64,000 nucleotides of DNA, from NCBI RefSeq assembly GCF_032268605.1, contig NZ_CP130318.1:4035913-4099912 (forward strand), given 5' to 3'. The DNA is from Paenibacillus aurantius (GTDB lineage: Bacteria; Bacillota; Bacilli; Paenibacillales; NBRC-103111). The notes beneath the pieces were generated by a model, which did no database searches, was not told the DNA's origin, and saw only the letters and a list, made by a program, of their open reading frames with translations. A program made the translations under genes and the position numbers. Shown here piece after piece: positions 19,751-64,000 of the stretch (positions are counted from its first letter, which is position 1; each line of letters opens with the position of its first letter).

Positions 19751-19867
19751 CAAACGAAAGTGTGCTAAAGTACGGCAAACTAACAACGCATTAGCGCCGC
19801 AAAGCTGCCGGGAAGCCCGTCCTGTTCGTTCCATTCCTCAACCCCCGGAGAAATGCAATCGTCGTTT

Positions 19868-20024
19868 CAGTCGGGCAGGTCTCCTGGCTTCGCTTCATTC
19901 TCCCGTTCCCTTCCCATGCCGAAGCACAGTGGGTCCAACGTTCGTCAGCGTTACAGTTGCGGGGACAGCGCTAGTCTTTCACTAGCTTCCCTATTAAACT
20001 ACCGTGTAGTACCTAACCGAAACT
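19868..20024 (-). ncRNA. Cobalamin (AdoCbl) riboswitch upstream of nrdHIEF
   Basis: On the minus strand the conserved core is visible: 'GTCCCCGCAACTGTAA', then 'CCCACTG', 'GGGAAGG' and the B12-box-like 'GCCAGGAGACCTGCC'. Spacing and order match the cobalamin riboswitch family. With the downstream terminator it should switch off the operon when adenosylcobalamin is plentiful. Confidence 0.93.
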
Positions 20025-20046
20025 ATTATGAAATTGGAATAAGGAG

Positions 20047-24472: not shown

Positions 24473-24745
24473 CAAAAAAATCCCGTCCCGAAAGGGACGA
24501 GATTTTACCTCGCGATACCACCCTGGTTCCGTAATGATCATCAAGCAAATAATCACACGGCAGCTCATCCTGCGTACCATCATACGCGTCCTTTGTAACG
24601 GCAGGATCCCGGGTCAGCTTACCTATACCACTTCAGCTTTCCTTCTCGGAGAGGATTTTCAGCTAATTCTTGAACATTGGCTTTCAGCACAAGGCCAACT
24701 CTCTGGGGAACAACGGATTAGCGTACTCGTTCTCGTCAATGAATT
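24473..24745 (-). ncRNA. T-box leader of ileS
   Basis: The minus strand carries the conserved T-box 'AGGGTGGTATCGCG' (24511-24524). It is followed by the terminator/antiterminator stem 'CTCGTCCCTTTCGGGACGGG' with a T-run at 24473-24480. The upstream part contains an AGAGAG-type stem I start. Uncharged tRNA-Ile should stabilise the antiterminator and allow ileS transcription. Confidence 0.9.
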
Positions 24746-24769
24746 TAAATAGGGTATTTAGTTGTTTTA

Positions 24770-51234: not shown

Positions 51235-51399
51235 AACCAGCCGAACCCGTCCCAGTCGGATCCCCCGCGAAACTGGCGGCATAATAAGGGCGGGAGCAGT
51301 AGACCTGATGCTTGATGATTGTTGATTGTGATGGCCTAATAGGCTCCATAATTCCACCATTCGAACACAAGCAAAAAAAGAACGCGGCGTACAGCAATG

Positions 51400-51565
51400 T
51401 GTGGCGTCATTATTATTGAGAAAAATGGATTGAAAATCGTTGATTTATCAATCTGCTTTTTCATATTTAATGAGAAGAGAAAAAGTAAATTTGAATAAAA
51501 ATTCGTCCTTTTCATAAATAATGCGAAAAACCGTATTTTAAGTTATGCATTATTTATGCAAAAAA
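51400..51565. repeat. Four direct repeats resembling a transposon end
   Basis: Four 18-base motifs run in the same direction: CATTATTATTGAGAAAAA (51408), CATATTTAATGAGAAGAG (51462), CATAAATAATGCGAAAAA (51513) and CATTATTTATGCAAAAAA (51548). A possible terminus TGTGGCG starts at 51400. Multiple spaced transposase-binding sites with a TGT end are typical of Tn7/Tn552-type elements, and a TniB pseudogene lies next to it. The remaining 51235-51740 sequence is AT-rich without genes. Confidence 0.55.
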
Positions 51566-51740
51566 GTGTATAAAGTTTTTCGCTTACCGCTCACTACCTA
51601 AACAAAAAAATACTTAACTAATGACTCATAAAGTCACAGTTAAGTACTTAAATAATGCAATTACTGAAATTTACTTATAATGCTAGATTAAATAGAATTT
51701 CTTCGACTTTCTTCTAATAAGATGTTGTTCATCTAGCATG

Positions 51741-52590
51741 TCAAAATCTATTTTTAAAATTTTGTGAGCTATTAAGCAAATTACAAGCTTTATTTATGTG
51801 CCACTCTGTAAGTCGGTCCTCTTCAAAAGCCAATATAGTTGCTTTAATTATTATCTCTTTAGTGTAACCTGGGAGTCCGCCCGACGTGAGATACAATTTT
51901 TCGGCTGCTTTTTGATCCGTAAGACATGACTTTTCGGAGAAAGGCAAGCAAGAATCAATTGCTTGAAGAAATATGTCATACTCATCTTCATCTAATGGAG
52001 ACAATGTTACCCTAGATAGAATCCTACTAGCGAATGTTTCATTATGAACTGGTAATTTATTAGAAATTTCTAAACCAGAAAAAATAACTGAAACCTGTAT
52101 AGCGTCAAGTAGAATTCTAAGCCATTCGACGGAATCTCTATGTATTCTTAGAGTAGTAGCATCGAAAAGATGCTCAATATAATCGAGCATAATCATTTCA
52201 ATACCAAGTTGTGTAATTGACTCAACAACTTTGTTTGTCATTGATGATAAAAAGAGAGATTATTACGATAATTAACATCCATTTGTTCTAATAGACTTAT
52301 GGCTAATTGCCTTGGTTTTGCTGAAGTGGCAATTTCAAAAAAAGTATTGGAAAAACTGAATCACTGATACATTTCTCCAAATACTTGTTTTTGTAAAAAG
52401 ACAAAAGAGTTGATTTTCCAGTACCTGCCTGAGGTTCCAGTCAACAAAAGATTGCTAGGACATCCAATTATTGAGGATTCATGGCACTCAGAAATAGCGT
52501 CAAATACTTTCCTAAATTCGAAATAAATCACTTGATATAGCTATCAACGTTTTCCCCGCCTTTATATCGTACTTATTTAGTTCAATTACA
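51741..52590 (-). pseudogene. TniB/TnsC-type transposon ATPase, frameshifted
   Basis: The intact C-terminal part (166 codons from 52241) carries 'MLDYIEHLFD' at the Walker B position, 'LRILLDAIQVSVIFSGLEI' and 'RVTLSPLDEDEYDIFLQAI', as in TniB. Upstream, in other frames, the Walker A 'LLLTGTSGTGKSTLLSFYK' and 'EIATSAKPRQLAISLLEQM' are still readable. At least two frameshifts and an altered Walker B acidic pair show that it is dead. TniA transposase and TniQ are absent. Confidence 0.72.
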
Positions 52591-52929
52591 TCCAAGTGTT
52601 CCCACAAATTAATCTTTTAAACTTGGTTTGCTTTTAAAATGAATATGTAAATTGCCTAATCCTCTGTTTATTTAATTTTCTTGGGGTTATACTTACAGCC
52701 AAATTGTTTTGTTGCCGTGATGGGTAACCTTAATGAATTCATTATTTTTCATGAATAATTGTAACTTAACCCATAAAATTGCCGATTTTGCATACTTATG
52801 CTTCCGATTGACCATGGCAAAATTATGCTTCCAATATTTAAAAAACCTTGATATATAAGCATTTTTAACAAACCACCTCGCACTTTACACCGGGCAGTGA
52901 AGAAATAGGAAAGATCACCAACACTGAAT
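52591..52929. other. AT-rich gap, no recognisable gene
   Basis: Only short unsupported frames occur here. It lies where a transposase gene (tniA) would be expected upstream of tniB, but I see no DDE-type motif on either strand. Confidence 0.5.
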
Positions 52930-53282
52930 AATGAACAGCTCGGCTCCGTTAATGCTAACACGATGACTTCCTAGGTTATAGCCATTAACGCGATGCTGAC
53001 CGTTCGGTCCTGTGGAAAAACTGCCGACCAACTTTTCACCATTGTCGATGGCAAGATCGAATTTAATTCCTGCGGGTCAACCGCTTTTCGAACCTTACAA
53101 GTGAGTTCATCGTCCAAATAACGGATACCACTCCATCCTTTGCATTCACGCAAATCCAACCCGCATTTCCGATCACATATCCAAGTTGATACATTTAGCA
53201 TTATTTCCGGCATCCAATGTCCTCCATGTTGTGGAATAAAAAAGGGAGACTCAAAATGTACATACGTATCCCGTATGTCCAA
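52930..53282 (-). pseudogene. Broken reading frame of unknown origin
   Basis: A minus-strand frame of 103 codons ('GHWMPEIMLNVSTWICDRK'...) loses protein-like character. A second frame then continues as 'GIKFDLAIDNGEKLVGSF' and 'GPNGQHRVNGYNLGSHRV'. This looks like one gene with a single-base shift near 53075. I do not recognise the family. Confidence 0.3.
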
Positions 53283-53363
53283 ATGGTCTCAATGATCAAT
53301 CGTAATTTCAGAAAATTTCCACAAGGGTAGTCAGCCACTCATAGCCGACTGTTGGTGCATCAT

Positions 53364-54170
53364 TTAAGAAATAAAGCAGTTCCCAATATAATGTTGAGTC
53401 ATAAGGTACCTTAAGCCCCTAAAAGTAACGACGATACAATTCTCTTCGACGTTACGTTCTCCACGTAACTGGGCGTATATCTGAGTAGTGGATGCCTTCT
53501 CATGCCCTAGCATCCCCTGAATAAAATCCAATGGTGCACCGTTATCAAGCAAGTGGCAGGCATATGTATGGCGAAACCGATGGGGGTACACGTTAGCAGC
53601 GACCTCTCCGCGACGTGCAAGCTTTTTTAAAGAATATCGTATTGTGGATATGGTCATTCGTCGAACAGGAAGAGAACCAGTCGCAAAGAGAGCTTTGCAT
53701 GAATCCTGTCGGTTCTCAAGGTATCTCTTTAACCAAACCTTGCACTCTGTCGTAAAATAAACTTCTCATTGTTTAGAACCTTTCCCATTCACAATTACGG
53801 AGCAGTTTTCCCAGTTGATATCTTCCACATTTAATCGGTGGACTTCACCAACACGGCAACCCGTACAGTAGAGGAATTCTAATAGTGCATGCTCACGTGG
53901 AGTTTCACAGGTAATTTTAAGAAGAATAACATCTTCCTCTATCAAAAACTTCGGGATCCGTTTATCCACGTTTGGTTCTCTCAGTTTCAAAGTTGGATTT
54001 TTAGCAATGAGCCCTTCCTCAAATGCAAATCGGAAAATGGACCTTACGAACCGAATACGATGCCCCAAACTGCTTGGTTTCAATCTCTCCGACTGTCTCG
54101 CCAGATAATCTTTGAGCAAAGTTAGAGAAACTTCTTCGATTTCAAGGTTTCCAATTTCTCGTATCAGCAC
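53364..54170 (-). pseudogene. Tyrosine recombinase/integrase with in-frame stop
   Basis: The N-terminal SAM-like part starts at 'EVSLTLLKDYLARQSERLKP', and catalytic Arg lies in 'YCTGCRVGEVHRLNVEDIN'. The frame then stops at TGA (53766-53768) after 'NGKGSKQ'. It continues in the same frame as 'EVYFTTECKVWLKRYL' and reaches 'YPHRFRHTYACHLLDNG' and 'LGHEKASTTQIYAQL', with all catalytic R/H/Y residues. One CGA-to-TGA change explains the break. The first 60 or so residues also seem missing. It resembles XerC/XerD-type recombinases. If the stop were read through, a nearly complete enzyme would result. Confidence 0.8.
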
Positions 54171-54445
54171 TTTAAGCTGCCCCCCAATTTATTTATTATC
54201 CTTAGCTTCGCATCATTTAGGAGGGTTTAATCTATTTTGTTTAATTTTGTTGCCAAGTTAGCTTGGCCGTTAGTGGAAAAGGCAATTCAAAATGATTGCT
54301 TAATGCATAGCCAACAAAGAAACCTACCGCCATCAAAATACGGGAATTACGTGGATAATTATTATTTACATGTCTCATTTGCATAGATAATTGCATATAA
54401 ATAAGCACAAATGGATAGACTGGTATCTAATCTTGGAGGTGCAAA

Positions 54446-54934
54446 ATGGATCGGAAAGATAGCTGGACTGTAGAAGACGACTTATTGCTTGCTGAAACAG
54501 TGATTGATCACATTAAAACTGGGAGTACGCAACTAGCTGCATTTGAAGAGGTTGGAGCGCGTTTAGACCGTACAGCAGCGGCTTGTGGATTTCGTTGGAA
54601 CTCTACAGTTAGAAAACAATATGAGGATACCGTTAAAGAAGCGAAGATTCAACGGTCTGCTCAGAAGAAGGTCAAAATAGCTAGTGTTATTCCGATGAGG
54701 AAGGACGACGCAGTAGGAACGGGCGAGAATGTTATCAAGAAGCATATACAAGAAGTAATTCATTACATCGAGAAACTGGAACATACAATCAAACTTCAAC
54801 AAGAAGAGATTGAGGATTTAAATAACAAACTGGCAGAAGAAAAATCCGGGAAAATTGCAAGTGAAGATCTGGATAGTCTCATGCATATAATCCTTCGCGC
54901 AAAAGAAATGGGCACGTTGAATAAGGCTAACTGA
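54446..54934 (+). CDS. RsfA-family prespore transcriptional regulator
   Basis: This 162-residue protein has an N-terminal Myb/SANT-like DNA-binding domain ('[19 protein letters not shown]' to '[19 protein letters not shown]', residues 6-60). A basic linker and a C-terminal coiled coil follow ('[20 protein letters not shown]'). This is the layout of RsfA/YlbO proteins, which fine-tune sigma-F genes in the forespore. GGAGG lies before the ATG, and a strong terminator follows. The 275 bases upstream hold no gene. Confidence 0.88.
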
Positions 54935-54939
54935 ATTTC

Positions 54940-54967
54940 GAGCCATGCTTATGCATGGCTCTTTTTT
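54940..54967 (+). terminator. Terminator after rsfA-like gene
   Basis: GAGCCATGC and GCATGGCTC with a TTAT loop, followed by TTTTTT. Confidence 0.85.
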
Positions 54968-55001
54968 ACTTTCAATTTTCTGTAATAGGCCACGAGTTCT
55001 C

Positions 55002-55092
55002 GTTTCCGGCTAGCTGAGTTTCCGCGCGGAACGCAGTAAAAGCGATGGATCGGTTCCATCGCTGTACTCTCGTACCCGTTAGCGGAATGAAC
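55002..55092 (-). repeat. Interspersed CCCGTTAGC element, copy A
   Basis: The proximal motif is degenerate (CCGGCTAGCTGAGTT, 55006-55020). It is followed by GCAGTAAAAGCGATGG and a GCGATGG/CCATCGC hairpin, then CTCTCGTACCCGTTAGCGGA, with the intact motif CCCGTTAGCGGAATGA at 55075-55090. It lies 3' of the GNAT gene. The middle part matches copy E closely. Confidence 0.6.
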
Positions 55093-55113
55093 CGTTCTCA
55101 AGGCAAGTTTCAT

Positions 55114-55142
55114 AAAAAGTCCATCCCTCATAGGATGGACTT
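55114..55142 (-). terminator. Terminator after GNAT gene
   Basis: On the minus strand AGTCCATCC and GGATGGACT pair, followed by TTTTTAT. Confidence 0.75.
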
Positions 55143-55150
55143 TACTCAAA

Positions 55151-55726
55151 TCATATTTCTGCCTGCTTGTGAAACTGTTCCTTTGTGAGAACATGCAATA
55201 ACTCACCGTTACACTCCTCGTAATCACCTGTCAAACCCATTAGTTCGCGTCCAAACACAAAACCCAGTTTCTTAATTACTCCTATTGACGCAGTATTCTG
55301 TGAATTGGCCTTAGCGAACAATCGGTCTAATCCAATAACATTGAAGGCATAGGCTGTCAACGCGGCGGCTGCTTCAGTTGCATAACCATTACCCCAATAG
55401 TCACGGCCAATTAAATAATACAGTTCTTTATCAGGTGCACTTAAATCAAGTACGCCCACACCACACCAGCCGATGAAATTGCCTGTTGCTTTGCTTCGAA
55501 TCGCAAATGAGTATTTAAATGGCATGTTAAAGGGTGTATTGTAACTGTCGATTAGCCACTTGAATAGTCCTTTATATTCTTCGAACGATAAAACTCCCAT
55601 ATGCATATAAGTGAACAATTCTGGGTTTTGCATCAGCTCAAACGATTCCACCAAATCACTTTCGTTGTAAGGACGAATGATTAGACGCTCTGTTTCCAAT
55701 CGCATCCCAGATAATTCGGTTTTCAT
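55151..55726 (-). CDS. GNAT-family N-acetyltransferase (RimJ/RimL-like)
   Basis: This 191-residue acetyltransferase starts 'GMRLETERLIIRPYNESDL'. The acetyl-CoA loop is 'YLIGRDYWGNGYATEAAAAL' and the C-terminal part is 'ANSQNTASIGVIKKLGFVFG'. These are the marks of RimJ/RimL-type enzymes acting on protein N-termini or small amines. GAGGAG lies before ATG 55726. It is a single gene between repeat copies A and B. Confidence 0.9.
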   Translation of the reverse strand: MKTELSGMRLETERLIIRPYNESDLVESFELMQNPELFTYMHMGVLSFEEYKGLFKWLIDSYNTPFNMPFKYSFAIRSKATGNFIGWCGVGVLDLSAPDKELYYLIGRDYWGNGYATEAAAALTAYAFNVIGLDRLFAKANSQNTASIGVIKKLGFVFGRELMGLTGDYEECNGELLHVLTKEQFHKQAEI

Positions 55727-55910
55727 CTTGTTTCTCCTCTTGTCTATATATTTGTTTTTGATCATGTATCAGACCTAGAGTGCGAAATATGGCATACCCA
55801 CCACTCACTTTCCACGCATTTTATCTATTAACATAATCTGTTTCCCAGGAAAGATACAATGGATAATTTGATTTTAATCGAAGTTACCATCTGGATAATA
55901 CCTTACTCTA

Positions 55911-55990
55911 CTGCCCGTAAGCGGAACAAGCGGCTGATGATGTCGGCCGCTTGTTGTGATTGTGTTATCGTACCCGTTAGCTGAATGGTT
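55911..55990 (-). repeat. Interspersed CCCGTTAGC element, copy B
   Basis: Motif CTGCCCGTAAGCGGAAC (55911-55927), hairpin AACAAGCGGC/GCCGCTTGTT (55925-55955), then motif CCCGTTAGCTGAATGG (55973-55988). The stop codon of the phosphotransferase gene is inside the second motif. Confidence 0.7.
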
Positions 55991-56942
55991 TATTGTTTAG
56001 AATACGTAAGGTCTCAATGGTTTTAATAACAACCTTTGTCTTTTCCTCTTTGGAATTTTTATTGACTTCTAACATGTCTAATATATCCTTGCTCTTCCTA
56101 AGTAACAACACATCAGAGTACATATCGATGCTTTTCTCTTCAATTGAGCTAAGTGGTCTGACTGATTGATAACCGTTTAAGACTGCTTTATATACGATAT
56201 TATCAAAACAAAGCCTTATCACCGCTAAATCATGTATCCTCCATCCATACGCGCAATGATCGAAATCGAAAATTTTAAAACCATGTACTGGACTATAGTG
56301 AACGTTAGACGGGTTTAAGTCTCCATGAATTAAGCCAAATGCCTCATTAGTTGTAGGAAGTTGATTAATCTGCTCATACATGATGTTTGCACGAGTTTTA
56401 AAAAAGGATATATCGGATAAATTTAGGGTTCCGATATACTTTTCCAAAGTTTCTAATGGCTCATTTATCAAATATCCTTGATCAATTTTAATTCGAGAAT
56501 GTTCGCTTTTAAACTCATCGGCTTTCTTATGAAGAGAAGCGACTAATTTCCCGAAGAACATTGCATCGCTGGGATTAATATTTCCTATATGACTACCTTC
56601 AGCATGATCAAATAAGGCTATATATCGAAGCTCATTTTTACAATGTACAGTGTTTAGGGTTTCATTTTTAATACTTCGAATTGGAAAAGCTACAGATACC
56701 CCATTACTGTGTAGATACTCCAGGAAATCCAGTTCAAAACGAATATCTGTAATATTTCTTATGTATCTTTTTTTATTTTTATAAATCCTTAAAATAAATT
56801 TACTTCCATTCGCATCAATGGAGTAATGATCATTAAAACTTCCTCTTAGGAATTTACACTTTATTGGACTTGAAAGACTGTATATCTTATCTAAGGCATC
56901 AAGTAGTAGATCTTCTCCCAGCATCTCGCCGCTAATGATCAT
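55977..56942 (-). CDS. APH-type phosphotransferase
   Basis: This 321-residue kinase-fold protein has the ATP-binding N-lobe ('GSKFILRIYKNKKRYI'). The catalytic Brenner motif is 'LIHGDLNPSNVHYSP', and the metal Asp is in 'IFDFDHCAYGWRIHD'. It resembles aminoglycoside/homoserine-kinase-like phosphotransferases; its substrate is unknown. ATG 56942 has AGGAG four bases upstream, whereas the earlier GTG has no site. The stop lies inside repeat copy B. It is the sole gene between copies B and C and is AT-richer than the left half of the window. Confidence 0.85.
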   Translation of the reverse strand: MIISGEMLGEDLLLDALDKIYSLSSPIKCKFLRGSFNDHYSIDANGSKFILRIYKNKKRYIRNITDIRFELDFLEYLHSNGVSVAFPIRSIKNETLNTVHCKNELRYIALFDHAEGSHIGNINPSDAMFFGKLVASLHKKADEFKSEHSRIKIDQGYLINEPLETLEKYIGTLNLSDISFFKTRANIMYEQINQLPTTNEAFGLIHGDLNPSNVHYSPVHGFKIFDFDHCAYGWRIHDLAVIRLCFDNIVYKAVLNGYQSVRPLSSIEEKSIDMYSDVLLLRKSKDILDMLEVNKNSKEEKTKVVIKTIETLRILNNKPFS

Positions 56943-57000
56943 ATCACTCCTATTTTCATTTTCACTAAATTTTAACACAATATGGAATTAAACTCTTCTT

Positions 57001-57090
57001 CCCCTTAGCGTAAAGAAGCTGCCGATCTTTTCCCGCGGCAGCTTCTTGATGGGTTTATTAAGCTCTTGTACACCCGTTAGCGGAATGAAC
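57001..57090 (-). repeat. Interspersed CCCGTTAGC element, copy C
   Basis: Degenerate motif CCCTTAGCGTAAAGAAG (57002), hairpin AAGAAGCTGCCG/CGGCAGCTTCTT (57013-57047), then CCCGTTAGCGGAATGA (57073-57088). Confidence 0.7.
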
Positions 57091-57208
57091 TCACGTCTTT
57101 CCAGCGTGACCTTGGTTCATCCGCCTTTGGGCTTTTACACATTTTACCGTACATTACTGTCCACGAGTCAAAGGTATGGACGGCCCTTTTCTCACTCATC
57201 TAGGAACC

Positions 57209-57850
57209 TTAGTCTTTGCCTGCGGCTTTCTTGCGGTATTCTTCCCCCGTGTCGACGACCCTCGTCATCCGTTCCAACCGGTAATACTCGACCTCGCCGG
57301 ACTGCTCGCACAAGGCTATTAGATAGACCCCATTCGCTTGGGAATACGTGCGAAAGGGATGCACCACCACCTCATACTCCTCTTCCTCGTCCGTATATGC
57401 AATACGAAGCTTATGGCTCTGCCGGATGGCTTCGTCCACCTCATGCTTCCGGTCGGCAAGTGCGGAATCCGCACGAAATATCGGCAAGTCGCTGTTCTCC
57501 GGTTGATACGGTACGAATCGTTTCAGTGTCTGGACGACGCGGTCGAGACCTTCGACGTATCCTATGGATTTCGCGGCTTCCTCGTATTTGTAGATGAGGA
57601 AGCTCAAGATCCGAAGATCGGTCTCAGACAGAAACACGGAAGGCAAAATGTAAGCTTGATTCGAGTATTCATACCCTCGCTCTTTGGCATTGTAACTCAT
57701 CGGAGCGAGTAGGGAGTTCTGCATATACTCGATGTCCCGACCGGCCTGTCGGACCGAGATCTCGAACCGTTCAGACAGCGACCGGGCATTCGGATAGCGG
57801 CGGCTGCGAATTTGTTCGTCAAACCACAGAATCCGATGCATGTTGCTCAT
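57209..57850 (-). CDS. WYL-domain transcriptional regulator
   Basis: This 213-residue regulator has an N-terminal helix-turn-helix ('YPNARSLSERFEISVRQAGR') and 'DIEYMQNSLLAPMSYNAKER' typical of DeoR-like YafY proteins. A C-terminal WYL domain follows ('HPFRTYSQANGVYLIALCEQ', 'YRLERMTRV'). WYL domains bind nucleotides or other small ligands. It lies six bases after the binding-protein gene and is surely co-transcribed with it. The 120 bases between copy C and this gene hold nothing recognised. Confidence 0.88.
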   Translation of the reverse strand: MSNMHRILWFDEQIRSRRYPNARSLSERFEISVRQAGRDIEYMQNSLLAPMSYNAKERGYEYSNQAYILPSVFLSETDLRILSFLIYKYEEAAKSIGYVEGLDRVVQTLKRFVPYQPENSDLPIFRADSALADRKHEVDEAIRQSHKLRIAYTDEEEEYEVVVHPFRTYSQANGVYLIALCEQSGEVEYYRLERMTRVVDTGEEYRKKAAGKD

Positions 57851-57856
57851 GGGGAA

Positions 57857-59038
57857 TCACCACCATCCCGGGGACTTAAAATCAAAAGGCGTGATCTTGG
57901 GAGTACGGCGAACCGCCTCTTGAAGGACATGTTCCGCATCCTCGGCATGAACAAGCCTGTCGAAGGTCTCGTTGTGATGGAAGGCGGGAATGAAGTTTGG
58001 GTACTGGTACGCGCCATCTTGGCCGTATTGCAGTTCCTTGTAGAAAACGGCATACATAGGGTCCGCCTTGTGGCCGCTCTGATCCGCCGTCTTCCGGTTT
58101 GCCGCCAGGTTTAGAACGGTCCACAGCTTGTCGACGCCTTCCCCCGGAAGAGCAAGTTTGCGGAGAAAAGCCCAGGCAAGTTCGCGATTGCTGCAAGTCG
58201 TAGAGATACCATACCCATACACTTGAAAAATGTTCGATTTAGGATGCTTTTTGCCGCCCGGGAAACCCACGACTCCGAACTTTTCCTTCTGTTCTTTAGA
58301 CATGGGTTTGATCGCCCAGTTCGCATCCAGATACATGGACATTTTCTCATGAATAAAGCAAGCCATCCAAGAATCCTGCCCAACCCCCATTCTCGGCGAC
58401 ACGTCCTCGTCGAACAAGGACAAGTATTGCCGGAACCCTTCTATGGTCGACGGATGGTTCAGATAACCTTCCAGTTCGACGCCGTCTTCCGATATGAAAG
58501 ATCCACCGCAATTCCAGACAACCGGTTCGACGTAGAGCATATATCCGAAGCTCGTAAAGGCACCGTGTCGGATCACGTTCCCGCTCTCATCCCGCATCGT
58601 CAATTTCCTTGCCGTATCTTTGAAGTCCTCCCACGTCCATCCGTCTTGCGGATACGGTAACCCCGCTTCCTCAAAATGCTGCTTGTTGTAGAAGACCCCG
58701 AGCGTCTCAGTCATGACCGGCAACGCCCCGATCCGTCCGTTCGATTCTACGGACTGTGCGATGCGCGGAAAATAGTTGCCCATGTCGACCTTGTCTCGCA
58801 GGATAAATTCCCGCAGATCGGACAAGATCCCGGCATCCAGGCATTGCCCCATGTTGGTGCCTTCCCACTCCACAATGTCCGGGCCTTCACCGCTCGTGAG
58901 CCTACGGATCAACTCTGCCTTGTTCGGCACGAGTTCCAGTACTACGGATACGTCCGGGTTCTCCTTGCGGAATTGCTTGACCGCTTCCTGAATGACCGCC
59001 ATCCGTTGATCGTCATGCGTCGCGATGGTAAGCTTCAT
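57857..59038 (-). CDS. Leaderless extracellular-type solute-binding protein
   Basis: This 393-residue family 1 (sugar type) substrate-binding fold begins directly at the first beta strand, 'MKLTIATHDDQRMAVIQEAV'. It continues with 'PDVSVVLELVPNKAELIRRL', 'GALPVMTETLGVFYNKQHFE' and 'DGWTWEDFKDTARKLT'. It has no signal peptide or lipobox. ATG 59038 has a clear AAGGAGGCGAAAGG site. A longer frame to 59146 has a hydrophobic start but no lipobox Cys. No permease genes are near. With a WYL regulator immediately downstream it may be a cytoplasmic ligand sensor (inference). Confidence 0.82.
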   Translation of the reverse strand: MKLTIATHDDQRMAVIQEAVKQFRKENPDVSVVLELVPNKAELIRRLTSGEGPDIVEWEGTNMGQCLDAGILSDLREFILRDKVDMGNYFPRIAQSVESNGRIGALPVMTETLGVFYNKQHFEEAGLPYPQDGWTWEDFKDTARKLTMRDESGNVIRHGAFTSFGYMLYVEPVVWNCGGSFISEDGVELEGYLNHPSTIEGFRQYLSLFDEDVSPRMGVGQDSWMACFIHEKMSMYLDANWAIKPMSKEQKEKFGVVGFPGGKKHPKSNIFQVYGYGISTTCSNRELAWAFLRKLALPGEGVDKLWTVLNLAANRKTADQSGHKADPMYAVFYKELQYGQDGAYQYPNFIPAFHHNETFDRLVHAEDAEHVLQEAVRRTPKITPFDFKSPGWW

Positions 59039-59230
59039 TCCTTTCGCCTCCTTAAGATGTCTTGCCATTCCAGTATAGGAAGGATCCCCTGACATATCGT
59101 GTCCGACCAAGAAAATAAGTGAGTGAAAATTCCTAAGCAGCAACATCTATCTCCATAAGATGAACAAATTCCGTTGTTCAGCTTATTCCAATTCGTTAAG
59201 ATTTCCTTCAAGAAGTGTTTACTACGCAAT

Positions 59231-59323
59231 GCTGCCCGTTAGCTTAACGAGGCTGCCGTACTTATTCGCGGCAGCCTCGTTAATTTCCTTTATTTTACTA
59301 TCGTCTCTCGTTAGCAAAATCAA
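59231..59323 (-). repeat. Interspersed CCCGTTAGC element, copy D
   Basis: Motif GCTGCCCGTTAGCTTAACGA (59231-59250). Perfect hairpin TTAACGAGGCTGCCG/CGGCAGCCTCGTTAA (59244-59283). Second motif CTCGTTAGCAAAATCA (59308-59323), directly abutting the metallophosphoesterase stop codon. Confidence 0.7.
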
Positions 59324-60061
59324 TTACCGGAGTTGATTACCATGAAAAATCTTGAGAATGAAATCACGATCAGGAACCTCTAATTTGGAATAAGATTTTA
59401 GGAACTCTGTATTGTCATACTTAACCTCCTTCAACTCAATCCTTGATTGCCCTTCAGCAATATGTACAAGTGCAAACCGAGCGGCAGGTTTATCGTAACA
59501 ACCAAGTGAACCTGGGTTCAGAAACGTATGATCATGATTCGCAAAGTAATGGCTGGGATGATGATGGCCGAAACAAATTAGGTTTTCTTGACGGTCAGAA
59601 AATAGCTCAACGAGATTGGGTAAGCTGGGTTCAACAACAGAACTAAAGGGGTCTTTACTAATGTGCTCTTTAGATTTTTCTTGATTTATATGGTAATGAA
59701 TCATCAATACGTCTAAGGCTTCCTGCCTAAATTTTATAGCCCTGGGCAGAGTGTTCAGCTTTTGAATAAGTGATTCCTCCAGTCTACTTGCTATCCATTC
59801 ATGATGGCTTCTTACATGCAAATGGCTAATTGGGTATTCGTCTCCGTTAAGAAGTGCTAAAACTGCCTCATCATGGTTACCTGTTATCATAGAAATATCA
59901 TTCCTGGCGAACAGCATGTGTAACACTTCATTACTATCAGGACCGATACCGATCATGTCACCAAGACAAAATATACGGTCAACCCCTGATTCATCAATTG
60001 CTTGAAGAGCAGCTCTCAATGCTGGGTAATTACCGTGTATATCGGTTATAACAGCAAACAT
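59324..60061 (-). CDS. Metallophosphoesterase (YfcE/PrpE-like)
   Basis: This 245-residue calcineurin-like phosphoesterase has the metal motifs 'ITDIHGNYPALRAAL', 'CLGDMIGIGPDS', 'ITGNHDEAV', 'IHYHINQ' and 'CFGHHHPSHYF', in order. It hydrolyses phosphomono- or diesters; the substrate is unknown. AAGGAG lies before the ATG. It is a single gene between copies D and E. Confidence 0.9.
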   Translation of the reverse strand: MFAVITDIHGNYPALRAALQAIDESGVDRIFCLGDMIGIGPDSNEVLHMLFARNDISMITGNHDEAVLALLNGDEYPISHLHVRSHHEWIASRLEESLIQKLNTLPRAIKFRQEALDVLMIHYHINQEKSKEHISKDPFSSVVEPSLPNLVELFSDRQENLICFGHHHPSHYFANHDHTFLNPGSLGCYDKPAARFALVHIAEGQSRIELKEVKYDNTEFLKSYSKLEVPDRDFILKIFHGNQLR

Positions 60062-60117
60062 CTTTTTAGGTCTCCTTTTCAGCCTTTATATATGTAGCTA
60101 TCCAGCCTCATACTTAA

Positions 60118-60188
60118 TGATTGGCCTAGAGGCAATAAAAGCGATGGGATCCACAGCTGCTCTCTCGTACCCGTTTAGCTCAATGATT
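60118..60188 (-). repeat. Interspersed CCCGTTAGC element, copy E
   Basis: GGCAATAAAAGCGATGGGAT then CTCTCGTACCCGTTTAGCTC (motif CCCGTTTAGCTCAATGA, 60170-60186). It shares its central GCAATAAAAGCGATGG block with copy A. It sits 33 bases 3' of the next phosphotransferase. Confidence 0.6.
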
Positions 60189-60219
60189 CATGTTAGCAAT
60201 CAAATACTGAAATCCCACT

Positions 60220-61206
60220 TCATTTATTCGATAACGGCCCGGCTTCCCCGGCCAGCAGCTTCAAATTCTTCTCGATCTCACCGTCAATCGCCGATCCCCA
60301 ACCATCAGGAATTTGCGGTTTATTAATGAGGTGGAGCATAGTGGATATGTCGGCAAGCTTGGACAGCGCGTACCACTCCTCAGGCAAAGGCTCTCTCGCC
60401 TTACGGTTGTAGCCTTCCTGGAAGGCGGCAATGGTATCTGCGCCGATATAGCGCTCGACTTGCGTCCTTGTCCTGAAGAATTTGCCTATGTCATAAAAGA
60501 CAGGCGCCGCGAAACAGTACTCGTAGTCGATGAAACAAGGCTCCAATGAAGGCGTGACCATAATATTGGAGAAAATGAAATCGCCATGCGAGAACACATG
60601 CTTGTCTGCAATCCTCTCTACCAATGCGGCGTGATTCACCAGGAATTGCATGCACTTCTCTTTAGTTGAAGGTTGAATATGGGTTCCTGCAAGGCCGTTT
60701 AGTAAGGTGTAATATTGGCTCGCGAAGGATTCAAGCTGTTCCGCGATCTGCAAATGCTCGTCTAACAGCGCCATATGAGAATATTCGGTTTGATGCAGCA
60801 AGGCAAGCGAGCTGCTGATTCGATGCACGACATCGTCGGGACATCCCTCGTTCTCGGTAATAAAGTCCCCTAGCGTCGAGCCTTCAATAAACACCATGAT
60901 TAGGTAAGAAAAAGGGGTAATCTGCTTGCTATCATCGAAATAGAAAATCTCTGGGGCGCGAATCTTTGCTTTTGCATACTGATAGGCTGCCGCCTCAATC
61001 CCGCTGTGGTCGTTGTTAGCGGGATAAATCCTTAACACATACTTGCTACCGCTGTCTGTCCGTAAGGCATAATTGCTGGTGCTCATGCCTTTCGTCAAGG
61101 GCGAGACTTGGGTAATGCTTGCCTTGGAGTCGAAAGCAGCGAACAGCCTCCTGACCATGTCTTCGTTAACCGTTTGAAAATCAAACAGTCTAGCCGAGTC
61201 TTTCAC
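60220..61206 (-). CDS. APH-type phosphotransferase
   Basis: This 328-residue phosphotransferase is unlike the one at 55977. Its N-lobe is 'GSKYVLRIYPANNDHSGIEA'. The catalytic motif is 'VFSHGDFIFSNIMVTPS', with the metal site 'CFIDYEYCFAAPVFYDIG'. It resembles aminoglycoside phosphotransferases and choline kinases; its substrate is unknown. It uses a GTG start with AGGAAGGG upstream. It is the last gene of the repeat-punctuated series. Confidence 0.85.
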   Translation of the reverse strand: MKDSARLFDFQTVNEDMVRRLFAAFDSKASITQVSPLTKGMSTSNYALRTDSGSKYVLRIYPANNDHSGIEAAAYQYAKAKIRAPEIFYFDDSKQITPFSYLIMVFIEGSTLGDFITENEGCPDDVVHRISSSLALLHQTEYSHMALLDEHLQIAEQLESFASQYYTLLNGLAGTHIQPSTKEKCMQFLVNHAALVERIADKHVFSHGDFIFSNIMVTPSLEPCFIDYEYCFAAPVFYDIGKFFRTRTQVERYIGADTIAAFQEGYNRKAREPLPEEWYALSKLADISTMLHLINKPQIPDGWGSAIDGEIEKNLKLLAGEAGPLSNK

Positions 61207-61405
61207 CGTAGGCCCTTCCTAGTCGAATTCTAGGGTCAAATTCATTAACAAATTCTCTGATGCTAAAAAATCACCCACATATTCCTTGGACAACTTCTTT
61301 TTATTAATAACTACCAACCCCCGATGCAAATATTACTATACTGAATTTAATGGTAACTGCTCCCTGGGACTTTAGTTTAATGATCCTTCATTAAATATTA
61401 ATTCA

Positions 61406-61807
61406 TCATCGTCTGACTATAATAGTCATGAAGTGAGGGTGGCCACACGCTTTTAAACTACTAAATCTCATTCCTCTGACTTTTCCATTGCTTATCCAGA
61501 CACCAGACTTACAAAAGATTGCTGCTAATTGACTAGCAAGTTGAGCTTCTGCAACAGTCAATTCTAGTGATTCCAATATGAATTTTCCTATTCCTTCAAC
61601 TTCTGTACCATTACCAAGTTTGCTTACGTTATTAGCAAGAGGTGTATCTGGATGACTCTTTACAAAATTATGTATTGCAGAAATCAATTCAGCCGAAAAT
61701 GAATATTCGTGAAAGTCCCTTTTGACACTTACATTGTTACTTGAGTCTATGTACCATTCAAATCTCTTTTGCTTGGCTCCCAGAGTATGATTTATAGCGC
61801 TTTTCAT
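61406..61807 (-). CDS. Hypothetical protein, 133 residues
   Basis: ATG 61807 follows GAGGAG. The protein is soluble and moderately hydrophilic, with 'RFEWYIDSSNNVSVKRDFHE' and 'GVWISNGKVRGMRFSSLKAC'. It has no signal peptide, membrane segment or motif I recognise. The C-terminal half looks alpha/beta. It is a single AT-rich gene followed by no obvious terminator. The 200 bases to the phosphotransferase hold nothing I recognise. Confidence 0.55.
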   Translation of the reverse strand: MKSAINHTLGAKQKRFEWYIDSSNNVSVKRDFHEYSFSAELISAIHNFVKSHPDTPLANNVSKLGNGTEVEGIGKFILESLELTVAEAQLASQLAAIFCKSGVWISNGKVRGMRFSSLKACGHPHFMTIIVRR

Positions 61808-61900
61808 ATTTATCTCCTCTATGGACATTAAAAAATAGAAAAAGTCCAGCAGCAGGTAAATGTTACAATGGGAACTCCTTACGGGACAATATCTTGTTAC

Positions 61901-62194
61901 TTACAAAGTCTGAACTTCAAATAGCTCTCTACTACTCTTACCATAAGGAACACAGAGATCATCTAATTTTCCTTTTAAGCATAAATTCCTGGCAAAATGC
62001 TTTCGCCACCGATTACCAGTATCCTCAACATCAACTATAATATGATTCGCTCCAACTTCGATAAGTGCTAATGAAATGAAATCCTGTTTTAGTCCTTTCC
62101 AGTTCGAAGGATCATCAATATAGTGTTCTAGAAAAATTAGTTGTTCTTGGCTAAAGTAAGCACTCTTCTTTTTCAAAGAAAATTTTAGTCTCAC
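61901..62194 (-). CDS. Hypothetical protein, 97 residues
   Basis: GTG start with AGGTGAAGG upstream, six bases after the preceding gene, so the two form an operon. The sequence 'EQLIFLEHYIDDPSNWKGLK' and 'IEVGANHIIVDVEDTGNRWR' suggests a compact alpha/beta protein. Family not recognised. Confidence 0.55.
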   Translation of the reverse strand: MRLKFSLKKKSAYFSQEQLIFLEHYIDDPSNWKGLKQDFISLALIEVGANHIIVDVEDTGNRWRKHFARNLCLKGKLDDLCVPYGKSSRELFEVQTL

Positions 62195-62200
62195 TCACCT

Positions 62201-62593
62201 TCACCTCTTATCACGCAGTTCAATTACCTTTTTCAATCTCTCTTTATAGCGCTCTAGTTTTGGACGCTTGTCTGAGCGCAAATCACTAATCTTCTCGAAA
62301 ACCTTAATAGCTTTTCTAAGCACCCTTATTTCATCATTGATCCTTTTTTGCTTTCTATAGATATCACACAAACTGTCATAAGGGTGACTTCCGTCAAAAC
62401 CCTTTTCTACATTTTTTTCATACAACTCAATAGCAAGTTCAATTTTGCCTTCCTTTTCATACTCAGATCCCTTAAGATTTCTCTCAACCTTCATTTTTTC
62501 TGAGTCCCTAGTCCGTGCCGGTTCAACAACTACTTCTTTTATTTTCTCGACTTGTTTAGGCGAACTCAAAAGCCGCTTCAAAAAAGTGATCAT
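62201..62593 (-). CDS. TPR-like hypothetical protein, 130 residues
   Basis: ATG with GAGGAG upstream. After a basic, charged N-terminus it contains helix pairs like 'GSEYEKEGKIELAIELYEKN' and 'PYDSLCDIYRKQKRINDEIR', the pattern of tetratricopeptide repeats used for protein binding. Very Lys/Glu-rich. First gene of a pair with the 97-residue protein. Confidence 0.6.
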   Translation of the reverse strand: MITFLKRLLSSPKQVEKIKEVVVEPARTRDSEKMKVERNLKGSEYEKEGKIELAIELYEKNVEKGFDGSHPYDSLCDIYRKQKRINDEIRVLRKAIKVFEKISDLRSDKRPKLERYKERLKKVIELRDKR

Positions 62594-62689
62594 TGTTATC
62601 TCCTCAATGAATCTACCGACTTTACAAAACTTGGAACAAGACTATAGTACCACATCAAAAAATAACCAACAATAATAAGGTTGCTTTGC

Positions 62690-63025
62690 TCAGATTAATT
62701 GTATTTCAAGGATATCCTGCAATTTAATCCAAACGAAATCACTATTATGTATGAGTTTGATTTGCTTATTTAATGTGTCTATTTTATCAATGCAGCCGAT
62801 ATGTATATGATCCTCATAATCATCGAAAACCGAAACCTTTACTTCATTGTCTGTGAAAATTGCTTCGGATATCACTCTTACTAGTTCCATAATTCTCTGC
62901 TCGTCCAGGATAGGTTTCTCTTTGATGTTCAAGTCTCGCCTATATGTAATAATGCGATCTCGATGTTCCGGCAGCATCATGCGTGACGCTTCCCAAATCC
63001 CATTCCCTACGAGTTTCTTTCCCAT
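62690..63025 (-). CDS. YolD-like protein (SOS-controlled)
   Basis: This 111-residue protein has 'WEASRMMLPEHRDRIITYRR', the signature of YolD-like proteins. In Bacillales these are usually encoded next to Y-family DNA polymerases (UvrX/YqjW). Here no polymerase gene is adjacent. ATG 63025 follows AGGTGG. A perfect SOS box lies immediately upstream, so it should be induced by DNA damage. Confidence 0.82.
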   Translation of the reverse strand: MGKKLVGNGIWEASRMMLPEHRDRIITYRRDLNIKEKPILDEQRIMELVRVISEAIFTDNEVKVSVFDDYEDHIHIGCIDKIDTLNKQIKLIHNSDFVWIKLQDILEIQLI

Positions 63026-63046
63026 ATTTAATCGCACCACCTATAA

Positions 63047-63058
63047 GAACATTTGTTC
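63047..63058. promoter_or_regulatory. LexA (SOS) box
   Basis: GAACATTTGTTC is a perfect match to the Gram-positive LexA site GAAC-N4-GTTC. It sits between the -10 hexamer and the yolD start. Confidence 0.85.
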
Positions 63059-63060
63059 TT

Positions 63061-63090
63061 ATTATATTCTGGATGGCTTAAGTTATGCAA
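63061..63090 (-). promoter_or_regulatory. yolD promoter
   Basis: On the minus strand TTGCAT (63085-63090), an 18-base spacer and TATAAT (63061-63066), with the LexA box just downstream. Confidence 0.6.
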
Positions 63091-63094
63091 GAAA

Positions 63095-63122
63095 CAAAAA
63101 GACCCATCCTAAGGACAAGTCA
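63095..63122 (-). terminator. Terminator before yolD
   Basis: On the minus strand GACTTGTCC and GGATGGGTC pair with a TTA loop and end in TTTTTG. It follows the small gene at 63132. Confidence 0.7.
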
Positions 63123-63131
63123 ACTTAATTT

Positions 63132-63317
63132 CTATGCGGCTTTATTCTTATCATCTGGGATAATCACTGGCTTTATTTGTTTCATCTTAATTTGATTATC
63201 ACGATACCCATTCCAATAATATATTCGGGGATAACGGAAGATGAGTATATACTCGTTCAACAAACTTACTCCAACAAATCCAATAAGTTTCCAATCAACC
63301 TGAGTTAATATCTTCAA
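63132..63317 (-). CDS. Small hypothetical protein, 61 residues
   Basis: TTG start with GGAGGGG eight bases upstream. The sequence 'WKLIGFVGVSLLNEYILIFR' is partly hydrophobic and is followed by a basic tail ending 'DDKNKAA'. Possibly membrane-associated. Not recognised; bounded by a terminator. Confidence 0.45.
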   Translation of the reverse strand: MKILTQVDWKLIGFVGVSLLNEYILIFRYPRIYYWNGYRDNQIKMKQIKPVIIPDDKNKAA

Positions 63318-63341
63318 TTTTCATCCCCTCCATATTATATT

Positions 63342-63605
63342 TTATTCAAGGATAAGTTCGTCCAATTCAATATGCAGCAAACAAAAAGACCCATCGTTAA
63401 GATGAGTCCCTTTATTTGTAGCATATTTTTTAATGTCAATGTATCCTATTAGTAACACATGCGAGTTACCGTTCTTCGCCGCAAGACGCAAACCTTCGCG
63501 GATATGCGCTCCCCCAACACCTTGTTTCTGATGGCTGGGTTTAACTGCAAACGCATAACACACGATGTAACCTGCAGGTCCATCGATCCACGTTCCACCA
63601 AAGCT
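63342..63605 (-). pseudogene. GNAT acetyltransferase remnant
   Basis: 'GGTWIDGPAGYIVCYAFAVK' followed by 'PSHQKQGVGGAHIREGLRLA' and 'GNSHVLLIG' is the acetyl-CoA-binding core of a GNAT enzyme. Upstream the frame degenerates, and downstream it reads through a terminator hairpin ('THLNDGSF'). Both ends of the gene are therefore lost. Confidence 0.6.
63382..63408 (-). terminator. Terminator inside the GNAT remnant frame
   Basis: On the minus strand GACTCATC and GATGGGTC pair with a TTAAC loop, followed by TTTTTG. It closely resembles the terminator at 63095. Confidence 0.65.
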
Positions 63606-63701
63606 TGAGATGCTCGTGGCGGACCGAGAGGACTTGCCCCCCGACGAGTGAATGCTCTGTTATCGGAAGTATCATTCTTCCCCGTATCCACCTTTAAGTT
63701 C

Positions 63702-64000
63702 TTACTCTAACTTCAAGTCATTATCAATTAGTCCTCTTTCCTTCAGGCTTTTAACGATTTCATTTATATCAATACTTCCATTAACATTTTTTTGAAAAAG
63801 GTTCAAGTCCACCTTCCCATTGTGATCTAAATAACCCTTTGCAACTAGCGCATCAGAAATGTAATTACGTGCAGCAACATACACGTCATATGCATCATAA
63901 GCTTCATTCCCAGTAACATAAGTCCTACCTTGATGGACAATCTGATTTCGCAAGTTATAAAGTATTTCATACCAATTTTTTATAGGCCCTAGAGTGTTAA
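63702..64000 (-). CDS. C-terminal part of a possible HEPN-domain protein (runs off window)
   Basis: The frame stays open to the right edge. It reads 'IKNWYEILYNLRNQIVHQGR' and then 'AARNYISDALVAKGYLDHNG'. The R-N-Q-I-V-H segment fits the R-x4-H motif of HEPN ribonuclease domains, followed by a helix as in DUF4145-like HEPN proteins. The last 40 residues are acidic and helical. Only about 98 codons are visible, so the call is tentative. Confidence 0.4.
   Translation of the reverse strand, partial: NTLGPIKNWYEILYNLRNQIVHQGRTYVTGNEAYDAYDVYVAARNYISDALVAKGYLDHNGKVDLNLFQKNVNGSIDINEIVKSLKERGLIDNDLKLE

Follow-up and report, generated by a model that had tools for sequence, protein, structure and literature searches.

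What are the five hairpin-bearing elements that each follow a minus-strand gene in a 64,000-nt stretch of the Paenibacillus aurantius genome (genome positions 4,035,913-4,099,912; the whole stretch is called the window here), and how was this array of genes put together? A sequence-only reading of the locus suggested a cassette system distinct from strict integrons or, alternatively, a dispersed repeat; of the two, the cassette system is supported by blocks that differ between strains, by breaks within site spacers, and by a cognate recombinase family. The array was very probably built by site-specific recombination at 28-bp sites by a dedicated Xer-type recombinase, working much like an integron but with another enzyme and other sites. 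The geometry of the sites, the same-strand arrays, the footprints in the spacer, the gain and loss of units between strains, the association and adjacency of recombinase and sites, and an orientation tied to replication are all evident from the sequences.

The constant motif of these elements, CCCGTTAGC, occurs exactly on the plus strand of the window at 55075, 55973, 57073, and 59235 (chance expectation 0.37; none of 100 shuffled windows reached four copies); the fifth element, copy E, has CCCGTTTAGC (60170-60179), with one T more. We built a weight matrix on the window's array and refined it on 36 segments (1.44 Mb) from ten Paenibacillaceae genomes. The wider search across Paenibacillus-type genomes that had been proposed for the elements was thus productive: the matrix found 549 sites versus 0 in the reversed control, and within each segment almost every site lies on one strand. 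The site has the 28-bp consensus ATTRAACTATC-STRCCC-GTTAGYTTAAT, that is, two inverted arms of 11 bp around a 6-bp spacer (11-6-11). The motif itself makes up only the right part of this 28-bp dyad, the putative unit of recombination. There are two spacer classes, L (CTGCCC) and R (GTACCC, GTTTCC, or GTATCC), and L and R sites often lie 46-75 bp apart with a variable hairpin between them, with 88 L-hairpin-R units obtained; similar hairpins are found again across genomes. Folding, which had also been proposed, gave a divided answer: the hairpin segments are strongly structured (mean z of -3.6 versus shuffles, in 70 reduced units), but the whole element is unsupported as a single attC-like fold, because the L and R arms within units show no covariation (z of -0.8 and -0.6). 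Separately, at the G017 and G103 loci (sequence GTTAGCCATCCATGC), the same sequence, CATCCATGC.., comes after the GTTAGC half-site in several places, perhaps as another element that targets these sites.

The array described by the sequence-only reading is real, but its true extent is many times larger and passes the end of the window. Between 4.091 and 4.160 Mb of the genome, a single strand holds ∼45 copies of the element, versus one per ∼150 kb elsewhere; the window covers only the left edge of this array, which runs on to ∼4.16 Mb. The 6.30-Mb genome holds 56 exact copies of CCCGTTAGC, and 19 of the 56 fall, on a single strand, in 4,090,987-4,159,726, a region that makes up 1.1% of the genome (binomial, 1.5e-23). 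An IS3-like element (4,100,768-4,102,044, locus L032) sits within the hairpin of an L-R element, and has a 98.7% copy at 4,133,354-4,134,630.

Homologous units in separate locations break at the sites. In 17 pairs of such units both ends coincide with sites, and all combinations of end sites (LL, RR, LR, and RL) are represented. The switch from identity to non-identity falls inside the 6-bp spacer (columns 11-16 of the site): at right boundaries, identity is retained to column 12-13 or beyond, and at left boundaries it begins at column 11 or before (twice at column 14), with footprints at columns 11-14 and 7-8 informative boundaries per side. For example, in the window's array the segments 4,114,861-4,116,741 and 4,119,262-4,121,142 are 99.5% identical and end at sites, and a second copy of the window's metallophosphoesterase unit, 89% identical, lies at 4,111,500-4,112,489 and ends at sites on both sides. 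Units also differ between strains. We compared the window's genome (G000) with another genome of the same species (G023), in which the array at 1.08 Mb is orthologous to the one at 5.47 Mb in G000. In this orthologous array, a hairpin unit of 59 bp is present in G000 at a position where G023 has a single site; hairpin segments can move alone. In place of one R site of G000, G023 has a multi-cassette block of 10.66 kb; the left and right halves of that R site match the left and right ends of the block, respectively.

These results bear on the possibility that the elements are a dispersed palindromic repeat (like miniature inverted-repeat transposable elements or repetitive extragenic palindromic sequences) or a terminator family at gene ends. 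Strongly structured hairpins that recur across genomes, and isolated sites that are also present outside arrays, are what such a family would give. However, a T-tract follows the stem in few copies, on either strand; the identity of flanking units switches in the spacer; multi-gene blocks between sites are gained or lost; and single-strand arrays longer than 30 kb are unexpected from random insertion. A dispersed repeat or terminator family is extremely improbable as the explanation. The sequence-only reading had itself named strain comparison as a check, and clean gain or loss of units precisely at sites (59 bp and 10.66 kb) was seen, so the cassette interpretation stood.

A candidate enzyme adjoins the left edge of the window's array, just left of the region that was first described: a broken tyrosine recombinase gene (53445-54188, minus strand; E-value of 2e-147 to the family model, positions 27-274), with one internal TGA and two open reading frame pieces at 53766-54170 and 53364-53657. 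Its family consists of proteins of ∼280 aa, mostly 70-88% identical to the N-terminal piece in the window (up to 88% for intact copies in other genomes). Members were found in 45 of the 104 genomes of the bacterial family and in 68 of the 298 sampled genomes of the order, and also in records assigned to Paenibacillus, Cohnella, and Brevibacillus and in some of Bacillus. Site abundance follows this gene: recombinase-positive genomes have a mean of 7.9 strict motifs (control 1.5), versus 1.8 (control 1.5) in recombinase-negative genomes (p = 5e-8). In 33 out of 62 intact recombinase genes there is a site within 150 nt 3′ of the stop codon, nearly always L-type and mostly at 10-57 nt, and the upstream side of the gene has a conserved R-like site (56 intact loci); thus, the recombinase gene lies between L and R where other units have their hairpin. 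Beside the recombinase we found this conserved site, but neither a distinct attI nor a cassette promoter. The R-like site is followed, just upstream of the gene (L060, L067, L073, and other loci), by a conserved leader hairpin, CCCTCCCAA...TTGGGAGGG, followed by TTTTATTATG, which would cover or hide the ribosome-binding site of the recombinase.

The catalytic residues R138, K162, H229, R232, H255, and Y264 are invariant in the family, and 67 aa separate the catalytic lysine from the HxxR motif. The protein scores ∼190 bits against XerC and XerD, below every Xer equivalog cut-off, and its closest solved structure is XerD, with IntI4 far behind; a structure prediction of the recombinase itself was poor (pLDDT, the predicted local distance difference test score, of 54.6) and was not used. 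A phage origin was considered and rejected: phage relatives are distant (at most ∼35% identity among the matches listed), and viral contigs reach at most 49%, over a short piece.

Could the sites instead be dif-like modules of the host XerCD, similar to those of Acinetobacter plasmids (pdif), with the nearby recombinase being incidental? The 28-bp, 11-6-11 geometry with a 6-bp spacer is indeed the layout of dif and pdif sites (PMC13141974). However, pdif sites alternate in orientation whereas the sites here are all direct repeats, site abundance follows the extra recombinase rather than the universal XerCD, and a plasmid relative has altered sites beside a diverged recombinase. We regard host XerCD modules as very improbable.

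The plasmid relative belongs to a group of recombinases, 48-54% identical, whose genes are carried by large plasmids from Peribacillus, Sporosarcina, Cytobacillus, and others. In three of the four plasmid regions read, sites flank the recombinase; the Peribacillus region is without them by this matrix. For example, a plasmid filed as Arthrobacter citreus NEB 577 (CP053689.1, L238) has ∼22 sites and a recombinase 51% identical; its sites have the spacers CTGCCA (L) and GCATCA (R) with the hairpin GGACTGCCGAAGCAGCCC between them, in the same L-hairpin-R plan. Recombinase and site sequence have changed together on this plasmid, with the plan retained. The recombinase and cassette array of CP053689.1 are of the kind seen in Bacillaceae, and its species label looks doubtful.

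We also checked the orientation of the sites relative to replication in eight chromosomes, taking dnaA as the origin and the opposite point as the terminus. Strict motifs are co-directed relative to the fork in 140 out of 146 cases, five of the six that deviate are no more than 4% away from the assumed terminus, and 30 of 34 clusters agree in orientation (p = 6e-6). Most cassette genes lie on the leading strand, opposite to the strand of the sites. This fork-linked orientation may stem from selection on the direction of the genes or from a mechanism that depends on replication, and skew at 4-fold sites did not separate the two. Arrays of sedentary integrons are likewise co-oriented with replication (PMC11023631).

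This likeness to sedentary integrons is one of the points that favor a true chromosomal integron, or a cluster of attC sites lacking integron integrases (CALIN), diverged in sequence, whose integrase would be of the IntI type and whose attC sites would fold from a single strand. In addition, the array consists of gene-plus-element units in one orientation, a feature that it shares with integrons, and the hairpin elements of ∼90-100 nt have two dyad core sites. An attC site, however, consists of two simple sites in opposite orientation (RYYYAAC...GTTRRRY; PMC3053210), while L and R here are direct repeats, with STRCCC in both; GTTAGC violates GTTRRRY, as the sequence-only reading had noted of the motif; and there is no covariation between the L and R arms. 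The recombinase has no IntI insertion: it scores 88 bits against the integron integrase model TIGR02249 (cut-off 265), as compared to ∼190 bits for XerC/XerD, and the alignment skips profile positions ∼180-240, the region of that insertion. Because both defining features that we tested, the IntI insertion and the attC architecture, are absent, we do not count the system among the integrons, and a diverged integron or CALIN has only a slim chance of being correct.

Recombination by the dedicated Xer-type enzyme may be pictured as follows. Each 28-bp dyad (11-bp arms around STRCCC) would be the core site of the small recombinase; two directly repeated sites would recombine, with the exchange in the spacer, so that the intervening DNA is excised, and the excised circle would re-insert at another site. 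The recombinase would thus perform the exchange on double-stranded sites, with circles as the intermediate. Any stretch from site to site could serve as a unit, be it a gene (alone or together with its hairpin element), a hairpin of 59 bp by itself, a run of several cassettes, or the gene of the recombinase.

Several observations weigh against this mechanism. The support comes from sequence, with the activity of the recombinase being inferred. Among the high-scoring segment pairs between shared segments, 240 out of 318 end away from sites (these include insertion sequence elements and plain homology); some boundaries leave spacers of 7-8 nt, which is unexpected under strict double-strand exchange; and for the 59-bp unit the parental bases point to an exchange at columns 22-23, to the right of its position in the other cases. 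In addition, the sole recombinase copy of the family in this genome is broken, G023 has arrays yet no recombinase of the family, and six recombinase-negative genomes have at least five motif hits. Since the only recombinase copy of its genome is broken, the array of the window is likely to be static in the absence of help in trans.

The individual elements of the window, all on the plus strand, follow the L-hairpin-R plan to different degrees. Copies B, C, and D have the motif-hairpin-motif form that the sequence-only reading described, as the site positions bear out; in copies A and E the left partner is present but degenerate (identified by eye). Copy A has an R-type site (55061-55088, spacer GTACCC, matrix score 34.6) and a degenerate left partner at ∼55002-55030, and its element has a 90% match at genome position 4,152,425-4,152,491. 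Copy B (55900-55986) has L at 55900-55927 (CTGCCC, 20.3), a hairpin, and R at 55959-55986 (GTACCC, 34.7). Copy C (56987-57087; matrix score 24.1) has L at 56987-57014 (CTTCCC), a hairpin, and R at 57059-57087, with one extra base in the spacer. Copy D (59221-59320; matrix score 33.0) has L at 59221-59248 (CTGCCC), a perfect 15-bp inverted-repeat stem, and R at ∼59293-59320. Copy E (60097-60184), which has an 83% match to the element at genome position 4,106,372, has its degenerate L at ∼60097-60124, a hairpin, and R at ∼60156-60184 with one inserted T.

The cassette genes, all on the minus strand, were correctly named from the letters, according to Pfam: a GNAT acetyltransferase (55151-55765; PF13302, 1.9e-29), an APH-family phosphotransferase (55977-56978; PF01636, 9.1e-15), a WYL-domain regulator with an extracellular solute-binding protein (57209-59146; PF13280, 3.5e-12, and PF01547, 2.3e-32), a metallophosphoesterase (59324-60061; PF12850, 1.4e-20), and a second APH/choline-kinase-like phosphotransferase (60220-61206; PF01636, 7.3e-20). 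A stop codon within the motif, also reported before, was confirmed for the APH gene at copy B, whose TAA (complement of 55977-55979) falls within the R site. The description of the genes as stand-alone transcription units found no support, with 11 promoter-like matches versus 12.6 in shuffles. Across the array, the cargo by Pfam includes GNAT (3), APH (3), metallophosphoesterase, WYL plus binding protein, amidase, DinB, methyltransferase, signal peptidase II, PlsY-like acyltransferase, FAD oxidoreductase, kinase, GrpB, and histidine phosphatase. An Rfam scan gave no match within the array; its matches elsewhere in the window are a cobalamin riboswitch (19857-20031, minus strand) and a T-box leader (24490-24748, minus strand). 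Just upstream of the broken recombinase gene, at the place of the conserved site of intact copies, is a weak, degenerate R-like site (54252-54279, plus strand, matrix score 7.9), and an RsfA-like (Myb-type) regulator gene with only a weak PF13921 match (54446-54934, plus strand) lies between this recombinase gene and copy A.

A Tn7-like island of ∼90.4 kb (genome 4,087,310-4,177,693) carries the array as cargo; the left part of this island occupies 51398-64000 of the window, and the remainder extends past the window's end. The island is absent from G023, where the empty site joins 4,087,309 to 4,177,697. Its ends are TGTGTGGCGTCAT and ATGACACCACACA (TGTGTGG..CCACACA), with AGCAA duplicated as a 5-bp target duplication, and its right end has two TniQ genes, a TnsA-like (N) gene, and TniB/TnsC genes; a TnsB candidate (4,172,651-4,174,723) has no Pfam match and was called by position only. 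Near the left, at window 51741-52241 (minus strand), the island ends with a fragment similar to TnsC/TniB-type ATPases, which was identified by eye and has no Pfam match.

Integrons are the textbook gene-capture platform. They are reported to be nearly absent from Firmicutes, for which IntegronFinder 2.0 gave one complete integron, in Limnochorda (PMC9024848). Here, a widespread Bacillota lineage has a cassette platform of integron-like scale, and integron software can be expected to overlook it, since such software seeks IntI and attC. Should it be active, the system would help explain fast gene turnover in Paenibacillus, and would provide a second test of the interplay between cassette arrays and replication as well as a new recombinase with short, defined sites. 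An earlier description of the system was not found in the open-licence literature; one may exist elsewhere. Tentatively, the system may form a separate, third class of gene-cassette systems, alongside integrons and dif modules. Such a class would consist of a self-mobile cassette with an Xer-type recombinase and co-oriented sites of 28 bp, and would be widespread among Paenibacillales and on plasmids of Bacillaceae; its insertion or retention would be locked to the fork direction, and its arrays would span hundreds of kb.

Comparison with known systems places it as follows. The island shares with Tn7-like transposons the TniQ, TnsA-like, and TnsC/TniB genes, the TGT..ACA ends, and the 5-bp duplication, but its role is that of a carrier, separate from the cassette mechanism. 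Tn7 carries class 2 integrons, and carriage on a Tn7-like transposon, like the recombinase gene near a site, is a trait in common with integrons. Similar to sedentary chromosomal integrons, the units are mostly small and single-gene, with an element after each gene, in one orientation, and co-oriented with replication (PMC11023631). Unlike integrons, the system has a Xer-like recombinase without the IntI insertion and directly repeated 28-bp dyads instead of the inverted simple sites of attC; every site is a boundary (LL, RR, LR, and RL), the recombinase lies between two sites, and there are several arrays per genome. As in the Acinetobacter pdif modules, 28-bp 11-6-11 sites bound mobile gene modules, but here the sites are co-oriented, the arrays are long and mostly chromosomal, and there is a dedicated recombinase family. 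XerC, XerD, and XerA are the best family match of the recombinase (∼190 bits), with like size and catalytic residues; in contrast to these proteins, it falls below equivalog cut-offs, is multi-copy and patchy in distribution, and is tied to cassette sites rather than a single dif.

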